Shown in pieces: positions 34,641-63,373 of a stretch of 64,000 bases of DNA. The stretch spans positions 7,218,041-7,282,040 of the forward strand of contig CM048849.1 of assembly GCA_026545225.1 (NCBI GenBank), given 5' to 3'. A program made the translations under genes and the position numbers. This DNA is from Cornus controversa (Eukaryota > Streptophyta > Magnoliopsida > Cornales > Cornaceae). The notes beneath the pieces are model-generated. The model made no database searches, had not been told where the DNA came from, and was given only the letters and a program-made list of their open reading frames with translations. Numbering within the stretch: the stretch's first letter is position 1; each line of letters opens with the position of its first letter.

Positions 34641-34689
34641 AGAAACTTAGCAGTAGTAGGGCAGACTGAGAGTATTTGCAGTCGAACCA

Positions 34690-40560: not shown

Positions 40561-40869
40561 ACACTTCATTTGTTGTATCCACTAGATCATTTAAGTGCAT
40601 AATAAGTAGAGCATTCTCATTCCAACTTGTTGAATATATAAGTTTATCAAATGTTTGACAAAATTCCGAACAAGCTTACTTTTGTCAAAATAAGCTATAC
40701 CGAAAAAGTTGCATCGTTTACCTATTGGAGTACTCCCATTGTTAAGAGTTCTCTGACAACATATCAAAAACATTTCATGCTTCATCCTCATTCTTAGACA
40801 TAAATTCTACCCCACCTCGTGACTCGATTAGTTGACGATTATGGGGTGACAATCACTCGTAAAAGAATT

Positions 40870-41420
40870 GAACTAATTATCACTTGGTAAAACCATGATG
40901 GGGATACTTAAGGAGCAGATCATTAAATTTCTCCCAACACACGTAAAACTCCTCACCCTCTTTTTGAGTAAATTGCGTGATATTTTAACAAGGGAGTTAG
41001 TTATTCGCATGAGAAATAACTTTGTAAGGAATTTGGTGTATAACCCATTCCATGAATTAACGGACACAGGTTTTAGTGAGTATAACCGAGATTTTGCTTT
41101 CTCTTTCAAAATCAAGGTTTTAGTGAGTATAACTAATGACTCCTCAAAAATATTTTGAAATTTACTGTGAAACACATCTCTAGAAATTCCTTGACATGGA
41201 TGTATGGGTCATCAGAGCTAAGACCTCTAAAAGTGGGCAGTAAATTAAGTACCACTTCTTGTATCTCAAAATGTCCCTATTGGGTAGCAAGTAACACAAT
41301 GTAAGACGGGTTCATAATTTGTATGGGAGTGTAGTAATCCTTAAGGGATTTAGTTTTAACAGAATCTAATGCCATCTTGGGCAAAAAAAGGATCTTTAAC
41401 ACTAGAAATTTTCATACCCT
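40870..41420 (-). pseudogene. Athila/Tat-like gypsy gag fragment
   Basis: The minus-strand frame reads SLKDYYTPIQIMNPSYIVL, a stop, HFEIQ, LLPTFRGLSSDDPYIHVKEF, LKEKAKSRLYSLKP and WNGLYTKFLTKLF. This is the Retrotrans_gag signature of plant Athila/Tat-type elements (TFxGLxxENPYxHLxEF ... KDKAKxWLxSLxPxS). A stop and drift in the second half show decay. Confidence 0.75.
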
Positions 41421-42321
41421 TTCGAAATGTTTTCTCAATCTCAAGATCTAATGGAAGCAACTCTTGATTCAGAGATCGACGACCTAACATACACTAGAAA
41501 GACTCAATGAAATGGATCGCTAAGAACAATGTAATCTAAGAGGACCTAATGCAAAAAAAAGAAAAAAATAGACTCCTAAAATGACTCACAAAAACATCAA
41601 CCAAATAAACAAGCAATTTTTTTTTAAAAAAAAATTTAATTCAAGGGTAGTGACTTCTATTTTAGTTTTTTTTTTTTCCTAAAAAACTATTTAGACTAGT
41701 TCCAAAATAATTCTTACCTAGTTAGATAACTTCTACTCCATTTTAGATAATTTAGAAGATTTCCAGTTAAGCCCACCAACAATACAACCAAGAAAGTTTT
41801 TAAGATAGATTGGAGGGGTCACAAACGGTCCCACTTAAAATCCAATCTCCTCAGAACTTTCTTAGACATTGTGAAGTTAGAAGGTACTCACTAGAGTTAC
41901 CCAAAGTTAACTCTGTCCAAAAGGGTCCTATAAGTTATGTGAATTCCTATAGCTAATGTCTACTTGATTTTAAATTTAAACTAAATTTGGTTTGGGATAA
42001 ATAAATACAAGGAGATTTTTAACTTAGGTGAGTAAGGAATTGGTGATGAAATCCAATTCTTATCTTGTTGGGGGTTCGTGCCCCTTCTAAAATTTTAATA
42101 TAAGAATGCTAAATTAAAATGCACAAACAAAACACACAATAAAAATAAAAATAAAATAAAAAGTGAGTGAGTGTGTAGTCTTTTTTTTTTAAATAAAGAA
42201 AAAAAATATAAAATATAAAATATAAAATAAACTTGAAGAAAGTGTGACCCTAGGGTTATTTCTTAGTTATTCTATCCAAGAGTTCTCATGTACAAGTTAT
42301 CAACGTAAAAAAAATCTATAT

Positions 42322-42352
<31 letters not shown>

Positions 42353-42778
42353 GCGAAAGAAAAAAAATGCGCTTACTTGGATTCCGAAGTAGTGCCCAAG
42401 AAGATGCAAAAAATGTAATTTCTAACAATACCACCTATAAAATTCAAGAAGTATTAAGTAAAACATTAATAATAAAATAAAACTAAAACTGAATTAAGAA
42501 GAATTACTAACACTAAAACTAAACTATAATAATAAAGAAAAAGTTTATTTTTTATTTATTTTAAACCTAGAACAGTGAACTAATCAAAATAAAATATGAA
42601 AGTAAACTATTCTCTAACTAAAAATAAAATCTCTAAACTAATAAAATAAAATAAAAATGAAAAACTTATAAATAAATAAAAAATTTCAGATTCTTTTTAT
42701 TATTATATAAAAACTAAACTAAAACTAGTAGAATAATTAAATCAATCAAAATTTGATTAGTTTCTTATTGCAATTTTC
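41421..42778 (-). mobile_element. 5' leader of the minus-strand Athila/Tat-like element
   Basis: About 1.35 kb of A-rich non-coding sequence lies between the PBS and gag of this element, as usual for Athila/Tat elements with long leaders. It has no recognisable ORF. The (TA)n at 42331-42351 is a microsatellite. Confidence 0.5.
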
Positions 42779-42791
42779 GGCAACGGTGCCA
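42779..42791 (-). other. PBS of the minus-strand gypsy element
   Basis: On the minus strand TGGCACCGTTGCC sits where TGGCGCCGTTGCC is usual for Athila/Tat elements, one base different. An LTR lies immediately upstream in that orientation. Confidence 0.75.
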
Positions 42792-42800
42792 AAAACTTAA

Positions 42801-44200
42801 TGTTGTTTTAGAAATGTAAAATAACCCGTAAGTATACGAATCTATTGAAGTATAGATCGGCAAGAACGAGGTCGAATCCAAGGAAATGCTTTGAGAAGAA
42901 AAACTAATACAAATTCAAATTAATTTAAAATTAATTTAATTTAAACAAAAGTTGGTTGATTTGAGAGAGAGTAAACTAACATGCAAATAAAATAATACGA
43001 TTGAACTCAAATAGAGAAAATAACTAAGGTGTCGAATTGCACCACCATTAAATCCACGAAGATTCTAATATTCATTTATTAATTCCCAAATTTAGAGTAG
43101 CATTCAAGAAATCAATCTATTGCTTACTCAAGATTTAACAATAAATCACTATGAAAAATATATTAAAAAGGTAGATTTTTCTTTGCTTCAGTAGTGTAAA
43201 ATTCTAAGCATTATGTGAATCCAATTTAATGAAAAACATAAGATCAAATATTATCACTTTTAAGAAATACAAACCCAAGCTTAGATTAATCATAATACTT
43301 CCTAACTACCACATATACATGATATAGATGGTGAAAGAACTATAAGATAATTAATCACAAGAAGCGAAAATCATAAGCATTTAAATCACACACATGAAAA
43401 TCAATTAATGAATAAAATAATTTTACTTCATTAATGGAGGTTTCCTCCTCAACCTTAATCGATGAGTTTAGTTACACATGGTAGAAGAAGATAACAAATA
43501 AATAAAAGATATAATGAAATAAAATAAATAAATAAAACCCGAATTCTCTTTGTCTTCTCTGCCTTGACATCCACTCGTTTTTCTCCTCCCTCAACCCTGC
43601 TCATCTCTTTCTTTTATATAGAGGTCCTCTAGGGTGTTCTCCAAGTAAAAGAAAATAGGAAATTATTGAGGAGAAAATCTGCCAGAATATTTTATCTGAA
43701 TTGAAATCCAATTTTAACCTTGAATTAGTGTGATTCACGAAATTTCTATGAAATACAAATATCTTGGTTTTCAAGTTAGGTTTCCACAGCCATTGAGTTT
43801 GCTCAATTCTAATAACTGACTCAAGAGATATGGTCAAATTACCATAACTGGTGTATTATTCACGCAGAATATTTTGTCTACTTTTACACATGATTTTCAC
43901 CCCCTTAAAGTCAGAATTAAGGCTTTTTCGTGAAATCTAAATCTATTCCTCTATGAATAATCTTTCTAAAAACTCTGGGCTTGCATTAATTCAATACTTG
44001 AGCAGAAAGTTGTGGCCCAAATAGTAAAGCTACGCAGAGAAGTTGTGGACTTTATATTTGTTGAATTTGGGCATTTTCCACAAATATCACCATAAACCTA
44101 AAAAGACACAAAACCACATTCATTAAATAAAATAATATAAAATAAATTACTAACAAATATAATGTTGGAGGTTTATTATATAAGAATTATGCACTTATCA
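42801..44200 (-). mobile_element. 5' LTR of the minus-strand Athila/Tat-like element
   Basis: Read on the minus strand it starts TGATAAGTGC at 44200 and ends near 42801 in ...ACAACA. It carries a CTATATAAAAG TATA box (near 43610-43621), and its last part has GATTCGACCTCGTTCTTGCC, typical of this LTR type. The right border cuts the chromovirus integrase precisely. No matching left LTR is found at 37240, so the insert has lost that end. Confidence 0.75.
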
Positions 44201-44979
44201 ACCTTCCACCCATAGATTGATGGGCAATCAGAGATGGTCATACAGATTTTGGAGGACATGTTGCGAGATTGTATTCTAGATTTTGGTGGTTCATGGGAGG
44301 ATCACCTTCCACTGGTCGATTTTTCATATAATAACAGCTATTAGTCGAGTATTGGTATGGCTCTTTATGATGCATTATACGGCAGGCCGTGTCAATCGCT
44401 AGTTTTTTGGGTTGAGGTTAGAGATAACACCTTATTGGGACTAGATATAGTGCAGGAGACCACAAAGAAGGTGATGGTGATTCAAGAGAGATTACGAGCA
44501 GCTTAGAGACACCAAAAGAGTTACACTAATCGGCGTAGGAGATTGCTCGAGTTCGAAGTGGGGAACTATGTGTTATTGAAAGTTTCACCTATGAAGAGGG
44601 TGATGAGATTTGGGAATTAGAAGGGAAAGTTGGCACCAAGATTCATCGGACCATTCGAGATTATCGAAAGAATTGGGCGCGTGGCTTGCAGACTAGCTCT
44701 ACTCCCAACATGTCAGCAATCCATGACATGCTTCACATGTCTATGTTGAGAAAGTGCCTAAGAGATGATTCACGTGTGGTTGAACAAGACACAGTGGAGT
44801 TGCACCCGAATGTTTCATATGTTGAAGTGCCAAATTGGATTATGGACCGTATGGTAAAACGATTGAGGCGAATGGAGATTCCATTACTGAAGGTGCAATG
44901 GAATAATCAAGATGAGAGGGAAGCCACATGGGAGCTGGAGTCAGAAATAGTGGAAAAGTATCCTCAACTCTTTAATTAA
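44201..44979 (+). pseudogene. Chromovirus integrase C-terminal part and chromodomain
   Basis: Integrase resumes at TFHP-stop-IDGQSE, which keeps the third catalytic Glu in GQSE; the stop is at a usual Gln position. SYNN, YGRPC and a GPF-type module (APRFIGPFEIIERIG) follow. The last frame (44686-44979) contains VPNWIMDRMVKRLRRMEIPL and LKVQWNNQDEREATWELESE, a chromodomain-like tail that classifies the element as a chromovirus (Tekay/Del-like). It ends YPQLFN and TAA. Confidence 0.87.
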
Positions 44980-45010
44980 GGTACACAAATTTTGAGGACA
45001 AAATTTATTT

Positions 45011-45024
45011 TAAGGAGGAAAAAA
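45011..45024 (+). other. Polypurine tract of the chromovirus
   Basis: taaggaggaaaaaa directly precedes the TGTAATGACCC start of the 3' LTR. This is where plus-strand DNA synthesis is primed in LTR elements. Confidence 0.85.
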
Positions 45025-47818
45025 TGTAATGACCCAAAATTTTAATTAAGAAAATATAATTCTTCATTAAGGGTAGTATGGTAAAAACCCTTCTAAAAAG
45101 ATATTTAAGTGATATTCAATTAATGGTATAACTTATTCTATGACAGAATAAGTTATTCTAATGTGGGTCACCAAACAACAATTGTGTGGGTGGTATTATA
45201 TAAATATAATAAGATGGTAATTAGGGTTTATGCGTTGACAGTCTTAGATTAATGAAGAATGAGCAAAGGAGGAAGAAAGAGAAGAATAAAGTTGAAGAAG
45301 AGACAACGAGGAAAAATTAATCATCTCTCAGTTGTAAGTTTTTTTCTTTTTTCCCACAATGATTGGTATGCTACAGTAATATTTATCATGTATTAATGTT
45401 GAGCAATTTAATAACAATCACCATTTTAAATGGCTATATGTCTGTATATGTGCATGAAGTGATAGAACTGTGTGTTGGGATCTGATTAGTTTAAGTAGCT
45501 GTGGAATTAGTGTTTCAATGGTTGAACAGTATGTTAGAGAAGGGGAACAATGGTGACTAAATGGCGAGTTATGGTTTGAAATAAGAAGCTCATGTAATGG
45601 AGTAGATTGACGCATATGTATATGTGTGTGGTTTTATATGAAGCTAAATTAGGGAAAGTGCAGTATGTGTATGACTATATAGATAGATATATATGTCTAT
45701 GTATATGCGGCTGATATGTATATATGTTATATAACATCCATATATGAATGGAAAATCACATGAGTTAAATCGTGGACATAATTTGATTATTTGGTTAGGA
45801 TTTGAATGTGTGTCAACCTTGAGATTCTTAAGCTGTTATATTCAAGCTACATGGCTCTTACTTGTAGATGCTCATATATGTGTTGTATTCAATTGTATAT
45901 GTAATCTAAGGTAGAGGATGAGAACCTATGGACTTATTTCTTTAATTGGTTGTGATATTTGCAAACATGACCCACTGTTTGAATTTGACATCGGTGGAAT
46001 TGGAAGTGATGAGATATAGGTATAATGGTGAACCAATAGAAAAATTAGAAATTGGGAAAAATCATGTTTGGCATCGGTTCTTGATGATATTGGTGTCAAA
46101 TGGTAGATTAAGATGCGGCGAGTTGGTTGGTGTTTATTTTGAGTCAATTGGTGGCTAAAAATGGCCAGAAACTGTGCCGAAAAAGGATGTCGGTGAGCTA
46201 GGTTGTAACAAGCTTCTGGCGCGTGAGATAAGAGGAAGAAGATAGTGAATAGGGCTGTGCGAAGCCCACACATGCTGCTAGCGCGTGGGCCTTGTTCTGG
46301 TGGTCGGCCGGGACAAAAAAAAGGTTGGTCTGGTCCCACTCACTGAGCCAAACCTCTGGGCCCCGTTTCGGGCCCACCCGGATTATAAAAGTATATTATA
46401 TATATATTTTTAAATAATTAAAAATGAAGAAAATTAGGGAAAATGCTTTAAAAATTGCGATAAATGTTGAAAATTTTCTAAAAAAATCAATTAGTTTTTT
46501 TAGGGTAGAATATGTTTGGAGTTATAGGTTTGGATTAGATTTAGTCATATTAGTTATTTGTTTAGTATGAAAAGTAGACTTTTAAGCACGAAAACCAAAA
46601 GTACGAACTATCCATGAACAGTTAGGTTCTGAAACTTTTTTAGTAGCTAAGATAGATAGGACGAGACATTATTAGGTACAATACTCTTTTTAGATTAGGT
46701 TCGTAGATTAGAAATAAAATTTAAAATATGTTTAGGGCACGCGTGTATAGGAGTGTGTGCATGTATGTGTGGGTGTGTGGCCAAAGGTGATGGTTGAGAT
46801 TACTGAAGTGTGTATATGTCTCTCCAACGTGGAGTTACGGGTTCCTCTGGCATAGAGTGTGTCCCTCCACATTACTCATTATTATGATGGAGTGCGGGTC
46901 CCTCCGATGTGGAGTGTGTGTGTCCCTCCATACTATTCGTGTTGTTTGGAATGTGTGTATGTGTCCCTCCACATCATTTATCTTAGGATCTGGATAGTTT
47001 CATACTTGTTAACTCTCTATTAGAGCTTGAGTTTTGTTGTCGTTCCTCCACACTACAGGGTATATTGTATATAGTGGTCTCTTGTGAAGAGTATGGTCAT
47101 GAATATAGATTGATTAAATGAAAGTTGGTTTGATGAGGCCATGGGTTAAACTTGTTAAAGAACTTTGCAATTCAAAGACATCATAAACATATTTTCTAGG
47201 GTGCACACTATATTGACCAATGGACTTGAAATGTTTAAGTTGGGACAGGAAATGGAATCTGAATATCCTGTTAGGTTATTGTCAAGTATTAAAAGATGTT
47301 ATTAATACTCTCTTTTCGTAAATTAATGCACCGTATGATTATCTATATTAATTAATTCACTGCAGTATCTGCTGAAGTATAGTGGTTGTTGTCGTTTAGT
47401 TAGAACATTACTTACTGGGCTTTAAAGCTCACCCCTTATTTTTCTCTCACATTTCAGGTGTGTGAAATCAGCATCTATAACATATTGGAGGAGGATTCCA
47501 CGTGAGGATTGTTCCAATGGAACCTTGTTACTATTTACTTTTATTTCAATTTTTGAGACAACATTTGTTGTAAGGATTGTCTTAGATAATAATTTTGATT
47601 TGGTTGTATTTAATTTTCTAGATATCAGTTGGTTATATGACATGAACACATGTTTTGTTTACTACCTCTTTTATACGAAATATTATGAGAACAGGTTGTG
47701 TGGATATTATTAATTCGATGTTAGGATGTGGATTCGATGGTGATGATTATGGAATAAAGTCAACCACAGGTTGAGTGAAGGGTCAGATATACCTCGACCT
47801 CAACTTGGGGGTGTGACA
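45025..47818 (+). mobile_element. 3' LTR of the chromovirus (complete, TG...CA)
   Basis: This 2794-bp LTR begins TGTAATGACCC and ends GGGTGTGACA. It matches 30412-33242 along its length. Over the last ~240 bp I count about six differences between the LTRs. It has one GTCCCTC-containing repeat unit fewer than the 5' LTR. ORFs inside (45926, 46794, 47462) have partners at the same place in the 5' LTR and are not genes. Confidence 0.9.
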
Positions 47819-48831
47819 TAGAGCATATTACTTTCAACTTCTTATTCCAAACTTTTGTCAATCGGGCGCTTTCTATTTCACTTCTCTTTGTATACACTTC
47901 TCAAAATCTCATCAACAATTATACTTCCTTATTTTCTTTTATTTTTTTTCTCTTTTTTTTTTCTTTTTTATTTTTTTCACCCGCTTGTACATTGATCACA
48001 TCCATTCTTGGGAAACCTAAAAATGGCTATAAAAGAAAGGCTGGACCAAAAAGCTTAACTAGTTATGACATTCATTTTCGAAAAATCGTAAAAAATGTGG
48101 TTATAAAAGAAAGAATGGGCAAAAAGCTCAATGGGTTAACAAGTGGTAATGTATAACAAAGAAATTTTTTTGAAAGATGACATAAAATCATTTATCAAGG
48201 ATAGGTATAGTTCTTCAACATACATGAGCTAAAAATATTAAGTATGACATAAAATAATAAACTCTCAATATTTGATAAAATAAAATAAAAAAGAAATAAT
48301 GAGACAAATCAACAAAATTAGAAGAACTTCAAGAAAAATCATAGCAATTAAAATATAACTATAAAAATAAAAAGAATGGTATAATACTTCATTGGGTTAA
48401 ATCTCCACTTTTATTTCCTGATTTTCTAACATGCAGTTACTTATCAATTTTAAATCATATTACGGGACTTTTTTAGAAATTCATGAAATTATTCTAACCA
48501 AATGATAGGATAAAATTTTAACTTTTATGACTTATTAATATACTAAAGTTTAAGGATTTAATTTTCAAAATTTCTATTTATAGAGTTAGAGGGGAATATT
48601 TTAGGTGGGAAAAAAAAATTTAAATACAAAATTTAAAAATAAAATTCAAAATACAAAATCTGAATTTGAATTTCTAAGATTTGATCTTGATATCTTCAAT
48701 TTGAATTCTGGACTGCTGACGTGGTTGTGTAAAAACTATATATTTTTCAAAAATTTGAACTTGAGACCTCTTGTAGAGTAGTTTATACAGAATATCATTA
48801 CTCTTACAATTCGTCTTATGTTCATTTTTGG

Positions 48832-48875
<44 letters not shown>

Positions 48876-49021
48876 TTTTTAGTCATTTTTTGCTACTTTT
48901 CTTCTCATTTAGAAATCAACCCATATAAAACATAAAATGCAAAAATAAGAACATTTAAATAAAGTAAAAGAGTAATTAAAGACTTATTTTAAAATATAAA
49001 ATAGCAAATTTTGTGCACTTA
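47819..49021 (-). mobile_element. Possible Athila/Tat-type LTR or spacer, minus strand
   Basis: It ends gtgcacttatca at 49021, which on the minus strand is TGATAAGTGCAC, the same start as the LTR at 44200. Around 48020-48140 it has repeated ggctataaaagaaaggctgg / ggttataaaagaaagaatgg stretches known from such elements' spacers. No coding domain, PBS or PPT is seen. A (TA)n tract lies at 48835-48872. Confidence 0.4.
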
Positions 49022-49129
49022 TCAAATTATTCCAAACGATGTTTTGCTAGTCTTCTAGCAAATACAAACAAAAAAGCTTAGTGCACAAAATAACTACTTT
49101 TATTAACTTATAAAGGGTGTGCACTCGAT

Positions 49130-49230
49130 TGCATTTACCATATTTGTGACGAGAATGAAAGAGAATATGAGCACATCCCCAAGCATCACTATGAATCAAA
49201 TTAAAGCATTTTGTAGTAATGTCCTTTCCT
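49130..49230 (-). pseudogene. Copia integrase core scrap
   Basis: The minus-strand frame reads FNLIHSDAWGCAHI, matching the Ty1/Copia integrase signature FDLIHSDVWGPxxI with its first catalytic Asp. The neighbouring sequence is too decayed to follow, up to the duplication border at 49602. Confidence 0.5.
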
Positions 49231-49716
49231 TGTATTATTCATGAAGAGAGTACCAATAATTTATAGTGTTTATAGTGATTACCAGTGAGGCTGTTGTGAC
49301 AAAAAGAAGAAAGAAAAAAAAAAGCATTTTACGGTTCTTGAGAATCCAATGATAATAAAAGCACTTTAATTTTTGTGTTCTGTTCATAGAATTTTGATGT
49401 TATCAATAACTTCCCTGGCACAGAGGTAAAGTATAGGAGCACAACTGATGGATCAGCCCAAATGAAATGAAATCTAATCTAATCCGAGCCCAACCTGGCT
49501 TTGAAGGTCTCCTTTTCATTCAAAGAAGAATCTATCTCATTTTAAGTTCAGCTTGGACAAAAGTGTTTGGACACCTCATTCCTCAGTCCTGTCAAAATGT
49601 GCATTTTGACAGGACTGGTAGTGAGACATTTTATGCAAAGAATCACAGGAATTATTTTCTTGGTTCCAAAAATGTGCAAACACTGAAGCTTATTACAACC
49701 ACAAATACTAGGGTTC

Positions 49717-49748
<32 letters not shown>

Positions 49749-50154
49749 GTTTAGTTGTAACCATGAATATATAGATTAGCCCATAGTTCATGAATATATG
49801 ATGATAATAATAAGAGAAAAGAAAGAAAGAAAGAAACGTCATACAGTAAAACGCTCTAGAGGCTATTAGGTCAATATGACTAAAGCTGGAAATCTTCGTC
49901 ATCAGAACAAGAGTTTGTACTTTACTTTTAGTTTTTAGTTAGATTTTTGAAAGTTGGTTTCAAGTTAGCTACCTCTTCTAGGGTAGAGTTGGAACTGAAG
50001 TTACAACCACACGAAAATGTACAGTCACCAAATTAGAATTCGTGCATATCAATTGGACTCGTACATTTTGTGATTACTTAAATCCTTTTTGATATGCATC
50101 AAGTGATTTTGGAAACTATTACAATTCAAATTTTCCATGTATAAATTCGACAAG

Positions 50155-50614
50155 TGTCATAAGAGTCCTATCCCACATCAGATAGGGATGAGGAGAGTTC
50201 TGGGCTTATACGAGAAGAACTTATAACGGATCAAACACCTCTTATCCGACCCAAAAGCTTAAGTTGTTTGATGGTGCTGCTCATCCGCTCTTATAAGACT
50301 AAGACCCTCCCCATCTATATCTGATGTGGGACAAGACTCATGTGACATTCTTTTCTACTCGAACCCGCAATGCTCTCGTTGTAGTCGAATCACCCTACTT
50401 AGTTGTCCACCCTAACAGCAAGAGGACTCGGTAACGATCCGAACCCAGACACCTCCAAGTGGACACTTGGCATGACAATGGATAAGGAACTAGATTGGCT
50501 CTAATACCACTTGCAACGAGTCAGACACTTGCCATCTGATCCAAAAGTTTAAACAGTGGAGTGGTGTTGCCTACCCCACATCCATATCTGATGTGGAATA
50601 AGACCCATGTGACA
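50155..50614 (-). mobile_element. TRIM element, copy B
   Basis: Counterpart of 22741-23220, with the same inverted LTR piece, the PBS-like TGGTATTAGAGC (reverse, 50498-50509) and an LTR end at 50614. The right LTR has an internal deletion. Its presence in both copies shows it was there before the duplication. Confidence 0.75.
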
Positions 50615-50908
50615 ATAGTACACTTAGACATATTGACATCAATTGAGGGCTACTAGACACATGTAGATCAATCGACATGGGAACTTCTATCAACCTATCC
50701 AGAAAAGAAGTTCCCTTTTTTGATTTAAAACTCTACAATCCTAATCCTTCTACTTCTCTACTTTTTCTAATAATTTTCAACTAATTCAGAAACCTACACA
50801 GAGAAAATACAATCCAGTGAGGCTATTTTGAGTGCATATAATTTTTATTTTCATTCAGCATTGATTCTGCATATGGATTGGTGAGTGATATACGTGTTGA
50901 CAACATAT

Positions 50909-51484
50909 TTTTTTTCCTAAATAAACTTTTATTAACAAAAAAAGAGAGCATACAAGGCTAAAGGAGGGCATCCCCTCTCAGATCAAGGGTTGAAAATTCC
51001 CACTTCCAGAAACAAACAAGAAGAAAAAGCATAAACCAAGTTACATCAAACCTAAAAGAACAGAGCCTACAAGGAACAAATCTGTCAACCAGAAAGGACA
51101 ACAACTGTGGGAATGCTTAGACCACAATACAAAGCATCCAGGTAAAAAATAGTGACTTGAGTAATAATATCTTTGGCTGGAACTAGCATTATGTAAGCAG
51201 TCATTGAAGCAGCAAACAAAACCTAAGCTCAGAACAAAATCCATACTAAGACTCCCATATACAGTGTCCCAGAGCAACCACCACCAATATAACTGATTAA
51301 TCCAGCAGCTATTCAGTGTCCCAGAGCAACCACCACCAATATAACTGATTAATCCAGCAGCTATTCACTTTAGATGCCATATGAGCTGGATGAGAGAACA
51401 TGAGTATCAACAAGTTTAAACCCCATAGTATCACAGACCTCCCAAACAATCATTCTACCAACTTGGCCTGGATTAGGAGCAAAG
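50909..51484 (-). mobile_element. LINE 3' end, copy B, same target duplication
   Basis: TTGACAACATAT at 50897-50908 and 51485-51496 brackets the insert, as in copy A. It contains an extra 52-bp tandem unit. Confidence 0.7.
51262..51365. repeat. 52-bp exact tandem duplication in copy B
   Basis: Units 51262-51313 and 51314-51365 are the same, beginning cagtgtcccagagcaacca. Copy A has one unit, so this arose after the segmental duplication. Confidence 0.9.
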
Positions 51485-52835
51485 TTGACAACATATTGCT
51501 GCTAAGCTTAATTGATGAGTGTGGAGAGCAAAATGCTATTGAAGAAGCATATTGTGTGAGGTGCATATCAGTTGAAAGAGTAGATTGTGTGCCTGAAGAC
51601 TCAAGTGACGAGTTTGGTGAATCAGTCTGTGTCAAGAGGTAACTAGAAGTTTTGAAGTTTTGAGGTTTTGAATTGAAACTAGTCGTACATCTCTTTCGTA
51701 TAATGGATTTGATCTGACTAGGCCAGGTCTTGTGGTTTTTCTTTTAGGGTTTTCCATGTAAATATGTTGGTGTACATTGTGCATGCTTTCCATTGCTTTA
51801 CTTTATATATATGATTGGGATGTTCAAGGCATGATGGAGTGGTAGATTTACATTATACTGCTCATACTTAAGTTTTAGATCATTGGCAATGTTATTAAAA
51901 TCTGAAAAGTAGTTAAAGTTAGTTAAAACAGCTAGCAAGACCTATTCAGCCCCCTCTATGTCTAAATCACGGACCTTGCGCTAATTCTCTATCAGAACCT
52001 AGGGTTTTGGTCCTCATCCTTTAGAGACTACCTTGTAGGTTCCTTAATCATAATTCTAATAGAAATTTAATCCGCATGAACCTAAAATTTTAGAGAATTA
52101 TCACACATACATTGCATGCAGAATTATCACACATCTTGAAGCAACAAATCTGGCATACAGAATTATCACACATACATTGCATGCTCAACATGTACAAGCA
52201 ACTTGCAATATATATATTGGGCAATGCGTACATGGACTAGAAAACCCCTATATTCATCCAGTCATTAACTCAATGTCATTGTCACAACAAATATCATATC
52301 GCTAGAAGTAGCCTTGTCAAACATCCAAGACCTCATAGGAGATCCTTTGATGGTGGGGCTTCTCACATGAAAGATATAGGAGATCCTTTGATGGCGAGGA
52401 GTCTCCTATTTGGTCTCTCAAATACAATATATTGAGTTCTTTATTTTTTGGGGGGTAAATAGGCAAAATTGTAAATCTTCTGGGTAAATTGTGGATTTTA
52501 TAGATGGCTTGAGCTTATAGTTGGCCATTGCCAGCTTTTTGTGTATTCACTTGGGAACGCTCCCCTCTTGAGTGCCTTTAATAAAATCTTACTTGTCAAA
52601 GAAAAAAACTTTAGGCCTAAAAGGTCAGAGAAAGGAATTTCCAAATTTTAGACCTGAGATACATATATCTTGAAAAGTTCGTGTCCAAATTTAGCTTGGG
52701 TGAATATTTTGATCACAAATAAGAAATATCTTATTGTTGCTAAACCTTCAGAACTTCTATTAGCTTGTTGATGTGTTCCAAACATTTTGATGACTAGTTC
52801 CTATCTCAAGAATCTTGGTTACCTTTTCTTTTATC

Positions 52836-52876
<41 letters not shown>

Positions 52877-53741
52877 CACATGTGCACCTTGACATTCCAA
52901 GGAAATTGAAATTTTCAGTTTTGCTTTGCATACAAGTTTACGTTACTAGGACAATTATGGAAAATGGAGATATGAAAACAAATATACTGAAAAATCAGGA
53001 CCATAAGATTTTAAGGTTCTCTGAGTTTGATCTCATTCCATTAGCCATAGTAATTGGCTCCAATTTCCATTAATGGTTCCACTTTAATGATGTGATTGCA
53101 ACTATACATGTTATGCAAAATATAGGGAAGCCATTCAATTAACCATAAAAACAACTAAAAGTGCCCAATTTGTATGAATTTTGTCAAGGATAGCTGTAAA
53201 CTAGTAGAAGAGTTCGATATTATATTTAGGTATGTATTGAAGAATCCAAACTTCAAGCATTCATGGAACTCGAAGTATAGAACAATAGAAATGGTTTAAA
53301 TTTAAGCTATTTACATGCCTCTAGTTGAAGCAATATAAAATTTTCATAATTATTCTTTATAAAAAATAAAATATCTACATGCTTGCCTCTGGAAAGAAAA
53401 AAAAACTACTTGCATAACAATAGCAATTAAAAAAATTTGGTAATCAAATCATTGCCTGCAAAAACACATATACATATGGTGCAGAGTAATTCAAGCATCT
53501 TGATAAACCAAGACTAAACAATATCAGAAAAAATACTACAGTACTAAACGGGAAGCTGGGTTAAATTATGTACATTTAAAAATCCTTAAAAAGAGTTTTA
53601 AAAGACATCTATCAAGAAATGCTTACAGTGAGTTATCTAGACTCCATAGGACATCAATCAATTTGAATGTGTCAAATACAAAATTAAATTTTATCTGTTC
53701 ACAGAGAGAGCCGATATAACACGTAATTGAAGTATTACTTG

Positions 53742-53777
<36 letters not shown>

Positions 53778-53862
53778 AACTAACTACAAGGAGCGATGAT
53801 CACAGATCTATGAACTAGAATGAATCCCCAAAATCAAACCTAAAATCCTTTCCAATACGTCA

Positions 53863-53892
53863 GCATCATCGTCCACATAAATAATACCATCT
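53863..53892 (+). repeat. 30-bp copy of bS6c coding sequence at the duplication border
   Basis: Identical to 54461-54490, which is inside the last exon of the neighbouring plastid S6 gene, and in the same orientation. It starts at the first base after homology to copy A ends, so it looks like filler DNA made during repair at the insertion junction. Confidence 0.9.
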
Positions 53893-53897
53893 ACAGA

Positions 53898-54023
53898 TCA
53901 AGTCAAGTCTGTGTTGAGCTTGGCCTTCAATATGCTGCTCATTCTAAGGCAGCTTGTTATGTACCGGGTGGGTTTGAGTATGGCATTCAGTGTGGAGATT
54001 GGGGTGAGCTAAATGTAAACTGA
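53898..54023 (+). other. Exon-like orphan ORF after a possible acceptor site
   Basis: After ctacag (53891-53896) a 42-codon frame runs to TGA, with protein-like composition (…LGLQYAAHSKAACYVPGGF…, EYGIQCGDWGELNVN at the end). I do not recognise the family. It could be the last exon of a + strand gene whose front part was lost or displaced by the insertion of copy B, or a chance frame. No start codon or upstream exon is visible. Confidence 0.3.
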
Positions 54024-54117
54024 TTACACAAATTTGCTTCCAACCTCAAAGTAAGAGCTTTTTCACCCCGTTAACAGTTAACAAATACAGTATTATCCAT
54101 AGCGAGGGTGAATCCAG

Positions 54118-54245
54118 ACACAACGGTAAGGTAGCATTGTTGCAATTTGGAAGTCTCATGTTCAAAACGAAAACCGCTTCTCTACATGCAGTGGTAAGAC
54201 CCAGACAATGACAAGAGCCTCATGCACCGAATTGCCTTTTTAATA
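54118..54245 (+). repeat. tRNA-derived plant SINE
   Basis: cacaacggtaaggtagc (A-box region), gtctcatgttcaaaacg (worn B-box), ctctacatgcagtggtaag and gacccagacaatgac follow in the order of a widespread plant SINE family whose consensus reads ACGGTAAGGTTGC...GGTTCGAA...GCAGGGGTAAG. It lies downstream of the bS6c stop codon. Confidence 0.55.
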
Positions 54246-54369
54246 TTATCCATAGCATCAAAACACACACTTAAATGACAAACAATTATATAATATGACC
54301 TACTTCATTGAACTGCCTGAATGTCTCCCAAACCAAAATTACAACAAAAAGGTAAGAATGAGAAACTAC

Positions 54370-57300
54370 CTACCTAGAACTTACTTTCTCAGCTTTCACT
54401 CTTCTTCCAGTGCTACTTACATTAGGTTTTCTACTATTTCTATGTCTTATATCATCATCGGCATCATCGTCCACATAAATAATACCATCTTCAGTATCAT
54501 CATCGTGGCTGGCCATATCTATCTCACCCTCATCATCCCAATCGTCACCGTCTTCGTCCTCAGAGGCATCACCATGTTCTATACCATCCTCATCATCATC
54601 CATATGGGCACGCAGTGTATGAAACTCCGGAGGAGGAGGACAATCCTCGGTGATTGCCTCGTCCCTCTTTATCACAAGATGCCGAATGACTCTCTCATCT
54701 TTGTCTAACATGCTCTTAAAATCATTAATCCATTTGGCTTCCAACTCGAAGTTCATCAAAATGTAGTGGGCATTCTTTGCTTTCTGTATCTTGTATGCCA
54801 GTCTTCGGAGACCCCAATCACTGAATCTCCATATCTTGCCTTTCTTCTCCCTTAAAAAGTCTGCAAAAATGTTTTCCATAGAGATTAGAAAACAAAATTT
54901 CAAAATGCATCCTCACAGATGGCATTTCAAATTAAACAGATCATAGTGATGTTGGGCCATAAAAAAAAAAAAAACAAAACAAACCTTCTAATTCTGGCTG
55001 TTATAAGCATCATCGAGTTCAAGTATGGCTGAGAAGAAATCTATACTCACACCCTAAAAACTTTAACAAAAATAAGTGCTAAACTTGACCATTGGAGCAA
55101 CTTAAATCTTTCCATAGCTGGTCGTTTAGAGTTGATTAAGACTGTTCTTTATTCTTTTCTTTATTACTGATTGTTTGGCTTCAAAATACCTTGGGGTTGT
55201 AAGGTGAAGATTGAAACGAAGTTGAAGCAGTTTCTTTGGAGTGGGAAGACTGATGTTAAAAAAATGGCTCAACTCAAGTGGAAACAGGCTTGCTTACCTA
55301 TTACAGAGGGTGGTTTTAATGTAAGGAAGATTGAGGATCTGGATTTTGCTTCAAAGTTCTCTCTGTTGGGACTTTTTGCAGCAGAAACAGAAGCTTTGGG
55401 TTGATTGGTTCAATGCTAAATATTTGAGAAATGCATCTTTTTGGACTGTTTTGCCTAAACAGAAGGATTCTTCAATTTGGAAACAGATTCTTGAGATGAG
55501 GGACTTTTTGAAGGACAACTGCACTTTCAGAATAGGTGTTGGTGACAAATTTAATTTGTAGCAAGACCCTTGGTGTGGTGGTAGTTCTTTAATACAAAGA
55601 TTTGGAGCCAATGCTTTTAGAAGGGTTTACAAACATGCTCTCCTTCAGTCAATCATGGAAGCTGGTAAGTGGAGAATTCTTGATGAATTTCCTCAAACTG
55701 CCAAGGATGTCATCTCAGGTTTGCCTATCAGGGAAGACTCGGATACCATTCTTTGGAATCATGGACTCTTCTCTCTTAAGTCAGCTTGGAATGCTTGTAG
55801 AGCTCAGTCACAAAGTGGAATGGACGAAGCTTTGTTGGAAATTTTGTAGGCATAGAGTTATTTCAGTTACTCTCATCATGCATAACAGGAACTTGTCCTT
55901 TGTTAATCTTAGGAGAAGAGGCCTGATTTTACCTACTATTTGCCATAATTGTTATTCAGCTGAGGATGACAATGATCATATGTTCTGTACCTGTTCTTCT
56001 GCCATTTCGGTTTGGAGAGATCTTTGGTATTCTTCATAGTTCTGCAGCAAAATTTTCTACACTGTTACAGTTGGCCGATTGGTTTATGATGATGACCAGA
56101 GTCAGGTCAATGAGGTCTAACATTTTGGTTTCTGTGTTTACGAATACTGTTTGGAGGATTTGGGGTCACAGAAATGCAGCCTTGCATCAGTGAACTAAAA
56201 CTTATGCTTTTGTCACTGCATTTGAAGTTCTTTGGGACGTGTCTTATTCCATGGGTCTATCTTTGGATGATCTGCTCCTTATTTTCTGAGTCTCTTTTGA
56301 TGTATTGGTCGAATTATGTTTTCCTTTTTGGCCTCTATTGGAAGTGGGCCTTTTCGATATTTTTAGTTGTTTTTAGGGGGTATGCCCCCTCTCTCTTGTA
56401 CTTGATATGTTTTATTAATGAAACCATCCCATTCGGGCAAAAAAAAAAACTTCAACAAAGATCATCCCCACGTCTCAAACTCTACAATTCATATGGAATA
56501 CTAGTCTTCTTAGCTCCTCTTCTTGTGCCAGGTCACATATCATTCTTTTTACCATAGAAGATTAAAGAATAGAATTTTCAGCATGCAGTGTGAATGTTTT
56601 TCTCTTTTTTGGAATAAAGTTTAGAAAACATTCCTGGGAAACTTAATCAAGCTTTTGATCAAATAAAAATGTAGACAAAACAAAGAGATGGAGTGGTTAA
56701 GCTCACCTTCAATCTTTGAATTTACACTTCCAACCTCTTCCTTGTGGTCCTCGTGAATTAAGTAAACCACTTCATAGTGGCGCACTGTAAAACCAAAAGA
56801 AATAACAACTCAAATTCAGCAATTACAGTAGATTAGGCAATTTAAATCAACTGATACAGAAGACCAAAATATGCTTCAATATTCAATTTATAATTTTACG
56901 GTGTATTATTACCAACAACCAATAATGGAGAAGGAAAATAACTATGATTCCCAGATTCTCCATGTCATTATGAATCACCCCAACCAGTTATTCTATCTGA
57001 CAAGCAAAAACGGAAAAATGACAAGGAAGGAAACATGCTCACTTTGTTTGACATTCAAATCGCTCTCCAGCTTAAGATTCAAATATTCAAATAGTTTCTC
57101 TGCAAATTAACAATCAATTCAAATACTGTGAGATTGGAAAGAAATAAATTACTGTAATTGAGAAAATCTCTAGTGATTAAAGAAACTCAGACCATATTAA
57201 TCACTTACCTTCATCAGCATCTGCAAACTCGGGTAGAAGGCTACCGTCTTCCTGAAGTTTTTTCTGAAATTCGTAATCGAAATAAGTACTAATAACTTTT

Positions 57301-57704
57301 ACCCAGAACTTAAAATAAGAAACCCATCTCTATATATTAAATACTCCAAAAGAACAAATGCAATAGCAACCCAAAATTCAATTCTACGGAAAATAAAAGT
57401 GAACATGAAAAGCAAATCAATTTTGCAAAAATTACCAAACTTAAATAAAACTTCAAATCATTCTTTCGCATGCATACATACATATATACACAATCACAAT
57501 CTCAATCTCTCAAATTCACACAATTTCGGCCCAATTTTCACAGAGTTCCTCCAAGAGTGTTCATTAGCGTGCTTGGGTTTTTTAGGTATAGCTACACACA
57601 AGCACTAAATCTTTCCAAAATTTGCATAATCAGTAACTACATAATGAGAACCACTGCATAAGAACCCTAAAATAAAACTGAAAAGAAGAATATATGTATA
57701 TATA

Positions 57705-57748
<44 letters not shown>

Positions 57749-58049
57749 ACGGAATGGAAATCACCTCTTTAAGCAACACAGCTTCGGGAAAAGGACCAGT
57801 GGCTTCATCAGGTTTGGATACAAAGCTATGAGTGTCCACCTTCTTCTTGTCCTTCTTGGCCTCCACAGTCACTGATCTTCTGAACCTCAGAGAGCTCTGC
57901 TGAGATGAAAATGGCAACAAAGAAGAATACCCATTTGCGAAAAACAAACAACTACTTCGATTCACAGCAAACCCACCACTGCTAATCAATTTTCCAAACT
58001 CTGGAGTGACAGATGTGGTTGTAAAGGATGTCCGAAAGATTGTCTCCAT
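54370..58049 (-). CDS. PRPS6: Plastid ribosomal protein bS6c (30S S6 alpha), five exons
   Basis: Minus-strand exons are 58049-57765, 57263-57209, 57099-57043, 56784-56707 and 54860-54370, 321 codons plus stop, all phases consistent. The product is the small-subunit S6 protein of the chloroplast ribosome, made in the cytosol and imported. Residues 1 to ~65 are Ser/Thr/Phe-rich with few acids, a typical transit peptide ending near RRSVTVEA. The S6 domain lies at about residues 134-235: VRHYEVVYLIHEDHKEEVGS, FLREKKGKIWRFSDWGLRRL, AYKIQKAKNAHYILMNFELE and KDERVIRHLVIKRDEA. An Asp/Glu-rich tail of about 80 residues follows, as seen in some plant bS6c. At the very end GAAAGTAAGT could be a donor, so the last few residues are uncertain. 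The last intron holds an antisense LINE. The introns and transit peptide exclude a recent plastid DNA insertion. Confidence 0.9.
55061..56462 (+). mobile_element. 5'-truncated LINE in the last intron of bS6c, with 13-bp TSD
   Basis: CTTTAACAAAAAT (55061-55073) and CTTCAACAAAGAT (56450-56462) flank it, two mismatches in 13. The body encodes the end of a non-LTR polyprotein: LSIAGRLELIKTVLYS, KQFLWSGKTDVKK, LPITEGGFNVRKIED and a zf-RVT-like CHNCYSAEDDNDHMFC...VWRDLW. The frame is broken many times. A 3' UTR with TTTTATTAATGAAACC and an A10 tail closes it. It is antisense to the host gene. Confidence 0.88.
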
Positions 58050-58260
58050 CGGAAGTGTTAGAGAGAAAGCTGCTGCTGCTGCTGGAGGGTAGAATTTGCC
58101 TATATTTTCTCTCTATACGCAGTGATACGAGAGAGAAAGGGGAGAAGAGTGTTTTTTGTTTGGGATACAAGAGTGGTGAGTTTATCCCTGGGTTCCAATC
58201 CTCTCAGGCAATCCTATCGACTCTAATCACGTGTCTTTTGGAAATAAATATGGTTATTTT
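58050..58260 (-). promoter_or_regulatory. PRPS6: 5' UTR and proximal promoter region of bS6c
   Basis: The leader upstream of the ATG at 58049 contains gctgctgctgctgg on the + strand and a ctctct-type pyrimidine stretch on the gene strand. No firm TATA box was chosen. The region up to 58.57 kb is AT-rich and shows no other gene. Confidence 0.35.
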
Positions 58261-58599
58261 ATCCCACCTTTTACGATAACCATTAAATTAAATTTAATGG
58301 CAATGTTACAAATCCACATGCTTTCCAAAAATTACAAAATTATTTATTCTAATTTAAATTTTCAAAATTAATCATTATTATTGGAAAAAAAATGTCATGT
58401 TTGGTTACATGTATGTAAAGCTTTTTCGAAAAAATCGGTGGTCAAGAAGCCCATTTCAGATAAGTAAAAAAAATGATTCTTTTAGAATTTCATTTCAGAA
58501 AGTCAAATTTTCTTTTGAAGTAAATTTGTTATTTTACTAATTTGTCCATGTAATTTATATATATTAACAAGATTGTACTATATTCTCTTTCAAGACCTC

Positions 58600-58910
58600 G
58601 TTCCTCCACCGCCACCACATCCCCCATCACCACCGCTGCTTTCTATCACCACCACCACTGCCGCCGCCACCACATCCCCATCACCACCGCTGCTTTCCAT
58701 CACCACCACCACCACCATCGCCGCCACCATCACCACCACTACTGTCACTACCATCGTTGTCACCGCCTACCACCACCACTACCACCCCCATTACCGCTAT
58801 CTCCACTTCCACCTCCACCACCACTACCACCCCCATTACCGCTATCTCCACTTCCACCTCCACCACCACTACTTCCACTAGTACCGTCACTTCCACTGCT
58901 GCCTTCCAAT
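58600..58910. repeat. CCACCAC-rich imperfect tandem repeat
   Basis: Strand-asymmetric repeats of ccaccac, tcaccacc and ctttc(t/c)atcacc dominate. They include a 45-bp unit containing cccccattaccgctatctcc present twice between 58.76 and 58.86 kb. Frames on either strand are open only because the repeat lacks stops; they give Thr-rich or Val/Gly-rich low-complexity peptides and are unlikely genes. Confidence 0.7.
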
Positions 58911-58929
58911 ACGATTTCGCACTTTCTAA

Positions 58930-59369
58930 GGGTTGTAATCGTTGTTAAGGATAAAATATAATATTGTCAAGAAAAAATAATATAAAAGTTAAAGTATATT
59001 TAAAAAATGCACTAATTGCATATGTGAATTTATTCATCTAAATTTATTGTCAGTCATGGATGCTTTTGTAACTTTTTTTTTTTTAGATCTTTGTTATTAT
59101 TAGAGTTGACACCAAATATCTATGATCTTTGTTAATCTTAGAGTTAAGACTTAGGACTAAGATCTATTAATCCAAAAAGGAGCAAAAACAAAACTTTTAA
59201 TAGTTTGTTAACGAAGCATTTATATATTTTAGAATATTTTAAATACATTTGCTTGATGATTCCAGTTCATTTACTTTTCGCGTTAGAGTTTTAAATATAA
59301 CATTTTAAATACATTTTGAATATTTTTTTGGTAATTATATATTTTTTAACAACCGTAAGGATTAATTTG
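58930..59369. other. AT-rich intergenic DNA
   Basis: I see no gene, repeat or element here. Confidence 0.35.
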
Positions 59370-59377
59370 ATAAATTA

Positions 59378-59802
59378 AGGCCTCGTTTGGAGGAGTTTCT
59401 TGATTCTAAAATTTCTTCCATCTAAAAGGCCTTTGAAGAATGCCTCCAATAAAAGGAATTTAAAATAAAAAAAAAGTTGTTTGGTGGATGCATTTTTTTG
59501 CAATTCCTTCCGCAATTAACAAATTTTTATCTTGACAAATTTATCCTTAATAATTACTCTCAATAGGCAAGTTTCACAAAATAAAAGGACGCAAAATTAT
59601 CTATAAAATTTGTTACTTAAAATAATTTGGCTTCCTTTCAAAAACAAGTTTTTCCAACTTCATTTGAACGGAATTTTTTGAACTTCGACTTTCATTAGAA
59701 CTTCATTCTTCTTATTTCACCAAACATTAACATTTTTTTGAAAAGGACTTCTTGGGCTTGGAAGCCCGTTTCAATCCCCTAGGAAGCTCTCCCAAACGGG
59801 CA
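59378..59802. mobile_element. hAT-type MITE, 425 bp
   Basis: An exact 8-bp duplication ATAAATTA flanks it (59370-59377 and 59803-59810). The ends are imperfect inverted copies: ggcctcgtttggaggag and, inverted from the right, GCCCGTTTGGGAGAGCTT. The 8-bp duplication indicates the hAT superfamily. There is no coding sequence. Confidence 0.7.
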
Positions 59803-60161
59803 ATAAATTAGAGAGAATGGCTTTGTGATTTTTTGAAAATAGAAAGGTGAGTTTGGAAAATAGTCGATAGAATTAATCTAACGGCTACCATAAAAGGTGT
59901 GGATAAAATCCCTTACTTACCGGTGAGTAAGAGATCACTACTGATATAGTTAAATACCTTACTTTTTTTTCTTTTAATTAGTCGAAAAGCCGCTTGAGTG
60001 GAGTCTAGAAGAGATGGATGCCAGCAAGCCTTATCTCTATTTTTGGAAAGGCTACTTCCATTTTTTTTTTTATAAGTAAATAGTTAAATACCTTTATTAT
60101 CCCAAAAAAAAAATACAGAAAAAGAAACTATAGCTAAATACAATATACATTGTTTTATTTT

Positions 60162-60898
60162 TTTATAAAAAGGTTCGGCTAACATCCCCGCTAAAGTGGG
60201 GAGGTTAGCTTTTGTCCCTATATTTTGTGGACAAAAAATGCACCTCATTAATTTTTTTAATACCATCAATTTAAAGGTATTAATGTCATTTGATAAAACA
60301 TCTACAACCCTCAATCCACCTCTAAAACATCTCTCTCTCTTTCTCTAAATCTCTATCTCACGAAACATTCTCTCTATCTCAACTCCACAATCGACGATGC
60401 AATTACCTTCATAATCGGCACCACCACCACCACCATAAAAGGCAACGCCACCACCACAAATACCACCACTAACATACCCATTATCTACAATCAAAACCCA
60501 CACAAAATTTTTTTAAAAAAATCACAGCCACCTATCCAACACCATTGTCGTTGAAGCACTCTCCGATTTATTTTACGACACTGTGTCTTCGGGCAATGAA
60601 GACTTTTCTTCTCACTGACACTGTGTAATTCGGCGTCTTTCATTTTCTTTGGCATCATAAGTATATTTATATACCCAGATAAAGAGAAGGCAAAGAGAGA
60701 GATTTTGTTAGAGACTCACATGGGTAAAAAGAGAAAATGAGAGGTGCTGATGTCATATTGTTTCCAAGTTGAAATTATATGAATGTCCAAATTTTTTATG
60801 AGCTGCCAGACACTAATGGGGTTGTTTTTGTCCACAAAATATGAGGACAAAAACTAACCTCCCCACCTTAGCGGGTATGTTAGCTTTCTCCTTTATAA
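60162..60898. mobile_element. MULE-like element with ~75-bp TIRs and a possible captured fragment
   Basis: 60162-60237 and 60825-60898 are inverted copies, sharing tttataaa, GCTAACAT, CCCGCTAA, GTGGGGAGGTTAG and TATTTTGTGGACAAAAA. Long TIRs are typical of Mutator-like elements. The interior (60340-60700) is richer in GC, with caccaccaccacc and a ttgaagcactctccg...gacactgtg stretch unlike the AT-rich surroundings, so it may be captured gene sequence. A 9-bp target duplication could not be defined. Confidence 0.65.
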
Positions 60899-61189
60899 AA
60901 TACATAAGAACACTATTGATGATGAAAATTGATAAAGATAAAGTAATTCATAGAGTCAAATAGGTGATAATAGGATAAGACGGTCAAATCAAGTTTGGTT
61001 GAATGAGGCAGGTGATTCAAATTCAAAGAATTGACTGATTAGAAGATAAAATAGTGGAACAAATGGGAGAGTCCAATTTGGCTACGACAATAGTGCATCA
61101 ATAAATAAGGGTCAACTACTCTAGTATGGGGATCTTCTTACAAAAAAAATATTGGAGAATTTATTATTTTATTTTTATATCTTCTTTGA

Positions 61190-61335
61190 TTTTTTAATTG
61201 AGCATCGGAGGGTCCCCGATCAGCACCCCACCGGATGGTCTCATCCCCTTTGTCTTGCAGGAACACGACGCCGAATCGGATCGCAATTTTTTTGTTTTTT
61301 TTTTTTGCATTAGCAGCTGGCGCCATCTGTGGAAA
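61190..61335 (+). mobile_element. Gypsy LTR 3' end and PBS remnant
   Basis: The order tcggagggtccccgatcagc, ccggatggtctcatcccc, cttgcagg, cgatcgcaatttttt-type and then TGGCGCCATCTGTGG (61318-61332) is the common 3' LTR/PBS junction of Tat/Ogre-like plant gypsy elements, where GGCGCCGTCTGTGG is usual. The 5' part of the LTR was not delimited. No gag follows. Confidence 0.6.
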
Positions 61336-61429
61336 ATGACAAATTTTCTAAAGGAGCTAGTTCTGATGCGATCTAGTTTGGACACAACTGGAAATCATTC
61401 ATTGCAAGTTTCTAACTATCTATGGGTAT

Positions 61430-61620
61430 CTATCCCCATTGCTACTCGATCAATGGGAAAACCCATGTTAGCAGGGAAACCAATGTTAGGACTCCTGTTC
61501 AGTGCAACCAGTGAGGAAACCCACGCCAAGATCCTCCATTCAGCATAATCAGTGGGAAAACCCACATCAAAATCCCCAATTTAGCATATTCAACGGAGTA
61601 AACCCCACTCTAGCAATCGA
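61430..61620 (+). repeat. Degenerate tandem units of about 50-60 bp
   Basis: Phrases like cagtgggaaaacccac, cagtgaggaaacccac and gatcctccattcagc recur three to four times. They are probably part of the gypsy remnant's leader. Confidence 0.4.
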
Positions 61621-61639
61621 TTCGAGGAAATCAAAATCT

Positions 61640-62055
61640 CCTGATCTAGCTAGCCTCCCACTCTGGCCAATCTCCTGATCTGGCCAACCTTCTATTTTGG
61701 CTTACCTTTTTGTTAAGGCGTACCTACCGGACTTGCTTGTCGAGGCCTACTTGCTAATGCTTACCTGCTGGCCTAATTAACCAAATTGTCAAGCTGTCGA
61801 GACCAAGTTGACTTTTTCTATGAAGCAATGACATAACCTCAATAGGAAGTCTTCTCCCCAATATATCAAGAATATATGAGAGAAGCCAAAACACAATTCA
61901 ATATAGACAAGCCACAAATGGGCTTGTGATTCAGGTTCCTCAGCCTCGACGACGATGAGGATAGATTTCTTATAATTGTTAGCATATCCACTTATAGCGA
62001 AGAACAATAACCTAGCATCATCTTCACATACAACTTATTAATACGCCTTCTAACC
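61640..62055. other. No recognisable gene
   Basis: It contains short clusters of ctggcc/taccta-like words and a 72-residue minus-strand ORF with no recognised domain. Likely part of the same gypsy remnant. Confidence 0.3.
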
Positions 62056-62665
62056 ATTGGTGAGCTAAAAGGTGATCAGGCTACAACTTAAAGTGCTAAG
62101 CACTTGACAAGGAGAAAAGATGGCCCCTAATTGAGGGCATTGCAGAGTCATAAACAAAGATCGGGGTCATATTCGCCTTTACCATTAGAAGGCGAGCTCA
62201 AGCAACTTAAATTTATGAACCCCCTCATGAGAAAGGGCAAGCAATGAAGCTCAAAAGACTACTAGCCCCTTTATTAAAGGGGTGAGCTCATGAAGCTCGG
62301 ATTTATGAACCCCCGTAAAGGACTGAGTGAAGCCCGGGGCCACCCCTTATTAAAGGGGTGCAACTACGAACCCTCGTAAAGCCTGAGTGAAGCCTAAGGC
62401 TACAACACCTTCTCTTACTAAAAGGTGACCCAAAAACCTTTCCCTTAGCAAAGGGTGAACCGAACATCTCCCTTATTAAAGGGTGAGCTGATCTCCTTAT
62501 TTATTAAAGGGAGAGCTGAACATCTCCCTTTATTAAAAGGTGAGCTAAACTATTCCCTTATTAAAGGGTCAAACCTACTCCTACCCTTATTAAATGGGTG
62601 AAACTACGAACCCCTTAAAAGGCTGAGTGAAGCTCGGGGTTATAACATCTCCCCTTATTAAAGGG
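62056..62665 (+). repeat. Tandem repeat of (c)ccttattaaagggtgagct units
   Basis: Ten or so copies of a cttattaaaggg core with an adjacent gtgagct occur. They are mixed with a longer unit (gaacccc-gtaaaggactgagtgaag) that itself appears three times. Each core is a short palindrome-like ccctttaataaaggg and can form stem-loops. Confidence 0.7.
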
Positions 62666-62669
62666 CGAG

Positions 62670-63314: not shown

Positions 63315-63373
63315 TGGTATCAGAATAGGATTATTCCTAACTCTTATGCCAAAATATGACCCAGCCACCAGAA

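Follow-up and report, generated by a model that had tools for sequence, protein, structure and literature searches.

A 64-kb stretch of the Cornus controversa genome (contig CM048849.1 of assembly GCA_026545225.1, positions 7,218,041 to 7,282,040; henceforth the window) carries an intact EMC6 gene and, separated from it by 22.6 kb, a partial copy of the same locus from which every EMC6 coding exon is absent. This copy (copy B; 49602-53862, plus strand) is probably a non-functional filler patch left by template-switching break repair, whose gaps coincide with the exons by chance and which has been neutral since. It consists of three blocks collinear with the EMC6 locus, joined at 3-bp microhomologies and bordered on both sides by short pieces copied from nearby sequence. 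The templated scars at the two edges are new here and are absent from the initial annotation of the window, which had reported the duplicate and its gaps.

Structure of copy B and of its donor

Alignment of copy B with copy A, the donor span within the intact gene (21281-26989, plus-strand coordinates, the gene itself being on the minus strand), distinguished three blocks in direct orientation, corresponding to positions 21281-21478, 22379-26194 and 26817-26989 of copy A. Across these blocks the identity is 94.1 % (3,813/4,053 aligned bases), with block by block values of 95.5, 94.0 and 93.8 %. The blocks are separated by two gaps, in which 903 bp (gap 1) and 625 bp (gap 2) of copy A are missing, and each of the missing stretches is flanked by a 3-bp direct repeat, as is found for fractionation deletions. 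Joint 1 falls in CAT (49840-49842, plus strand; A 21476 / A 22379, B 49840) and joint 2 in CAG (53702-53704, plus strand; A 26192 / A 26817, B 53702), so that both the gap sizes and the 3-bp joints of the initial annotation are confirmed by the A/B alignment. As a match of at least 3 bp would be expected at 6-7 % of positions for each joint, the two joints together point to the use of microhomology.

The EMC6 gene is encoded on the minus strand in four coding exons, with GT-AG borders for all introns and a product of 120 amino acids. Exon 1 (26281-26396; 116 bp) lies within gap 2 and exon 2 (21732-21927; 196 bp) within gap 1, and both are absent from copy B. Exon 3 (19569-19588; 20 bp) and exon 4 with the stop codon (19070-19100; 31 bp) are situated beyond the copied span, and copy B was thus never a whole gene. 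The Pfam EMC6 family was matched by exons 1 and 2 (E 1.7e-15; query with a short run-on), and the whole 120-amino-acid product matched the PDB entry 6ww7_F (E 6.9e-23). When the whole genome (771.7 Mb in 61 contigs) was searched at the protein level, two EMC6 matches were obtained, namely exons 1 and 2 of copy A, and no second EMC6, with exons 3 and 4 being of a length below what this search can detect. Copy A is the working EMC6 gene. No remnants of exons 1 or 2 were found in copy B by blastn comparison of each exon against the window, where only copy A was matched, and tblastn with the EMC6 exons returned a single chance-level row in copy B (E 7.2). The description of copy B as a duplicate of EMC6 that lacks the coding exons therefore holds.

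The initial annotation further stated that intron DNA had been kept almost base for base. Intron sequence is indeed kept, but at 94 % identity, falling to 87 % in the repeat-derived stretch 22595-23230. The A/B mismatch amounts to 3.7-6.2 % in most blocks (Kimura two-parameter distance, K2P, 0.038-0.065), and to 13.2 % in this stretch (K2P 0.15; 66 transitions vs 15 transversions). Raised mismatch and an excess of transitions are expected of methylated repeats. A repeat family covers copy A from approximately position 22398, with a later insert of about 0.5 kb inside it, which is missing from three of five genome copies (the other two match the first part only). Nested transposable element insertions shared by the two copies are thus supported for a single repeat family and the insert it later received, but the number of four initially proposed is not. 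Gap 1 was also considered as an insert gained by copy A, and this was rejected, with no inverted repeats found in 21470-22380 beyond A/T runs.

Smaller differences also distinguish the two copies. A site at 50009-50010 of copy B (plus strand) lacks 47 bp that correspond to A 22549-22595 and that are present, judging from BLAST spans, in 5/5 genome copies of the repeat examined, which places the loss on the side of copy B. This polarity is based on five copies, with at least 36 further family matches listed, and two of the five, on the opposite strand, are uninformative in the MAFFT view. Furthermore, copy B contains a perfect 52-bp tandem duplication of a segment that is single in A (51262-51367, plus strand; A/B alignment). 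Relative to copy A it also has a 67-bp insertion (52102-52168), which is partly built of copies of its own surroundings.

An assembly artefact, such as the placement of a second haplotype beside the first, was considered as an alternative. However, the two copies differ by 5.9 % mismatch and have different flanks on both sides, the missing exons belong to a gene with no other match in the genome, and both copies are part of a single contig of 67.7 Mb, all of which make an artefact highly improbable.

Templated sequence at the edges of copy B

A perfect inverted repeat is situated exactly on the left edge of copy B (49584-49617), with arms of 16 nt (49584-49599 and 49602-49617) and a 2-nt spacer, so that the copy's first 16 bases reappear, exactly reverse-complemented, in the left arm. 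On the right, the first base beyond copy B begins a 34-bp direct copy (53863-53896, plus strand) of coding sequence at 54461-54494, with 33/34 identical bases and the first 30 bp exact. Its source is 598 bp further on, within an open frame for a bS6-like ribosomal protein (54370-54912, minus strand; PF01250, E 8e-20), and in a genome search with 53560-54369 the section right of copy B matched elsewhere only at bS6. A reverse-complement copy on the left and a direct copy on the right are what is expected at the edges of a filler patch, and the insert as a whole is built of copied pieces, comprising three EMC6 blocks and the 34-bp bS6 piece. A 15-bp exact match between 49570-49584, which touches the left inverted repeat, and 19702-19716 in EMC6 intron 2 (E only 0.015) is possibly one more templated piece.

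The frequency of such features was assessed in the window and in 20 control stretches (200,000 bases, a total that is slightly too high as two of the stretches overlap by 1,960 bases; 10/20 are located no more than about 70 kb from the window). Using a rule of perfect, non-simple inverted repeats with arms of at least 14 nt and a spacer of at most 6 nt, after filtering of simple-sequence words, the left-edge inverted repeat is the only one in the window. A laxer rule adds one A/T-rich inverted repeat at 29904 and many TA runs. The controls contain three such inverted repeats, in 2/20 stretches, or approximately one per 67 kb. Outside the A/B and long terminal repeat (LTR) pairs, seven non-simple exact repeats of at least 25 bp occur in the window. 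A single tandem duplication at 6.5-7.1 kb accounts for three of them, two fall within copy B at distances of 52 and 65 bp, and the remaining two are a 45-bp array and the bS6 filler. Exact repeats of at least 30 bp that are 60-1,000 bp apart account for three spacings in the window (314, 327 and 598) and for eleven in the controls (5/20 stretches), only one of which exceeds 200 bp (527). Features of the edge type thus occur elsewhere, but the presence of one of each exactly on the two edges of copy B makes chance unlikely. The tandem duplication at 6.5-7.1 kb has units of about 320 bp (6538-6859 / 6861-7173) that are 91 % identical.

Taken with the collinear blocks and the 3-bp joints, the edge scars suggest a patchwork like those produced by polymerase-theta end joining or synthesis-dependent strand annealing (SDSA). 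In Arabidopsis, theta-mediated joining is described as using about 3 bp of microhomology on average and as leaving fillers templated nearby in forward or reverse-complement orientation (PMC10923293), and templated insertions may be patchworks of several segments (PMC12426944). SDSA filler derived from gene fragments has been invoked for plant pseudogenes and for gene movement in wheat (PMC7935947, PMC3445842). The patching of gaps is reportedly the subject of a classic paper by Wicker et al. in 2010.

By such a route, a chromosome break would have occurred about 22 kb from EMC6, beside bS6, and would have been repaired by error-prone template-switching synthesis of the SDSA or polymerase-theta type, during which non-coding blocks of EMC6 were copied in order. 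The left end would have been closed with the 16-nt fold-back copy, while the right end would have taken up the 34 bp of bS6 coding sequence. The exons would have been skipped at birth, when the strand under synthesis jumped ahead at CAT and CAG, or removed by two later microhomology deletions, and copy B would have drifted neutrally afterwards. The break, the pathway, its timing and the neutrality of copy B are features that we infer from the blocks, joints, edge scars and intact donor described above. Two later deletions were assumed in the initial annotation, but jumps at birth are an equally possible source of the same joints in the sequence of one genome, and copy B is probably neutral either way.

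Several observations weigh against a repair patch. Microhomology is 3 bp at both inner joints, but 0 bp at the right edge, where A 26989 meets the bS6 filler. The middle block is 3.8 kb long, compared with the insertions of 2-35 bp quoted for theta-dependent mouse joints (PMC12426944), and for a block of this length SDSA or break-induced copying must be invoked. In the controls, an inverted repeat of such size is encountered in roughly every 67 kb, and the edge features could be later local events. Finally, the separate 47-bp loss indicates that copy B loses DNA piecemeal or was badly copied, and together with the right-edge joint and the long middle block it speaks against a single event.

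The same evidence bears on an alternative in which an ordinary local duplication first copied a segment of about 5.7 kb, exons 1 and 2 among it, and two deletions at microhomologies, independent of each other, later happened to remove the exons in the manner of gene fractionation. The edge scars would then have arisen during the duplication or in small events afterwards. The 3-bp joints suit illegitimate recombination, and the flanking direct repeats of the maize deletions described by Woodhouse et al. are 3-24 bp, with larger deletions also occurring (PMC2893956). Furthermore, the three blocks are similar in identity and copy B has suffered further losses, one of which (the 47 bp) is polarised to it. 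However, neither the inverted repeat nor the bS6 filler at the edges is expected from a plain tandem duplication, and the within-exon deletions given by Woodhouse et al. (5-178 bp) are shorter than 903 and 625 bp (PMC2893956). Nor do the two copies lie side by side. The similarity of 26990-30410 and 47800-49620 to 1-21480 and 53800-64000 is limited to stretches of 28-37 bp with 81-89 % identity. The head-to-tail arrangement and continuous flanks of a tandem pair are thus not found for A and B, although later insertions could mask an original tandem state. On balance, a duplication followed by deletions is possible but unlikely.

Between the two copies lies an LTR element (30411-47816, plus strand), which we take to be of the Gypsy type on account of its reverse transcriptase- and integrase-like frames and its primer site. 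The pair 30411-33240 / 45096-47816 was considered as part of a larger duplicated unit, and this was rejected, as it represents the LTR pair of this one element. Mismatch between the LTRs ranges from 0.7 to 6.7 % in the outer windows and from 11 to 16 % inside 31.3-32.3 kb. The 5' LTR is, by eye, without approximately its first 70 bp, and no target-site duplication can therefore be read.

Capture by a transposon of the Helitron or Pack-MULE type would be favoured by the abundance of repeats nearby, with a repeat-family end near 49103-49145 and the end of the LTR element 1.8 kb left of copy B. In genome searches that skipped very common words, however, neither edge of copy B is reached by a match to a repeat family, and what the edges bear instead is the inverted repeat on the left and the filler from bS6 on the right. 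Outside the repeat-derived part, the only matches of 49602-50200 and 53560-53862, besides short TA-rich rows, were A and B, and transposon capture is thus extremely unlikely. The repeat-family end forms part of the stretch 48880-49145, about 0.45 kb left of copy B, for which at least 43 further genome matches are listed, five of them in one cluster, from 1,755 first-look candidates.

Loss of the coding exons

The statement that copy B had lost exactly its coding exons is too strong. Coding sequence constitutes 312/1,528 of the missing bases, and the gaps overshoot exon 2 by about 253 and 451 bp and exon 1 by 86 and 420 bp. Gap 2 appears, by eye, to take the likely transcription start and the first non-coding exon as well. 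When gaps of 903 and 625 bp were placed at random in the 5.7-kb span, both exons were fully lost in 2.75 % of placements, and a repeat of the calculation gave 2.7-2.8 %, also when all seven gaps of at least 10 bp in copy B were included. Both exons were touched in 5.2 %, and at least one was fully lost in 41 %. For a pattern picked from 64 kb after the fact, 2.7-2.8 % is weak evidence, and the coincidence of both gaps with exons is most likely due to chance, which had been named as possible in the initial annotation.

The alternatives put forward there, namely that a truncated transcript of the membrane subunit was selected against or that exon copies were targeted by small RNAs, would account, as would chromatin marks on such copies, for the removal of both exons of the copied span while the non-coding DNA stays, a result that random placement yields rarely. 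They find no support in the mostly non-coding make-up of the missing DNA, nor in a placement value computed after the pattern had been noticed. Exons 3 and 4 are lacking from the copy in any case. With gap 2 by itself, the start codon and (by eye) the start of transcription are already gone, so that a harmful transcript would scarcely be produced and little would be left for selection to act on in exon 2. No Rfam matches at the gathering threshold were found in the window, which does not exclude siRNAs. Exon-directed loss is accordingly considered very unlikely, and it is just as improbable that partial gene duplicates in C. controversa are preferentially purged of exons, whether by selection on transcripts or by exon-targeted silencing with subsequent deletion, leaving "intron ghosts".

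The retention of intron DNA without exons would also be in line with an RNA-mediated origin, from a reverse-transcribed intron lariat or an unspliced transcript. However, the block ends fall within introns, about 451 and 86 bp off the splice sites, and copy B contains sequence from intron 2 as well as from upstream of the likely start of transcription (placed by eye), which render such an origin scarcely credible. A processed pseudogene was likewise rejected, as intron DNA is kept in copy B and its block ends are away from splice sites.

An open frame occurs inside EMC6 intron 2 on the plus strand (~21090-21400), the last 118 bp of which are kept in copy B, with two 3-bp indels by eye. A nested gene was considered here, but no Pfam match was obtained for this putative frame and its only PDB match was to a designed protein (E 0.19). 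If it were a gene, copy B would not be free of all exons.

Comparison with known systems and implications

A filler patch of this kind has several counterparts among plants. With the filler DNA of plant double-strand breaks attributed to SDSA and polymerase-theta, as presented in PMC10923293, PMC12426944, PMC7935947 and PMC3445842, copy B shares the short microhomology at its two inner joints, edge pieces in both orientations and pieces of nearby genes. It differs in its 3.8-kb central block, which is uninterrupted by any large break, and in having one edge joint without microhomology, and the chromosome break itself is proposed from the scar. The fractionation of maize described by Woodhouse et al. 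(2010) resembles it in that coding sequence has been lost between short flanking direct repeats (3 bp or more). However, copy B is a local partial duplicate and not a homeolog, and has lost 903 and 625 bp, as opposed to the 5-178 bp within exons given there (PMC2893956). Like the fragmented non-processed pseudogenes of plants, it is a partial, local and non-functional DNA copy of a gene, but unlike these it retains zero EMC6 coding sequence. In the literature searched by title and abstract start, no earlier report of a plant EMC6 copy or of an exon-free duplicate was found.

Copy B can thus be regarded as a further case of a kind already known, most likely neutral, with no new process shown. 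It is probably a legible trace of template switching during local repair, close to a gene for which the genome gave no second match. Exon-free copies would be expected to escape pseudogene surveys built on translated exons, going by the survey method outlined in PMC7935947, and this blind spot may lead to an undercount of partial gene duplications among plants. Exon purging, if true, would leave intron ghosts invisible to such surveys.

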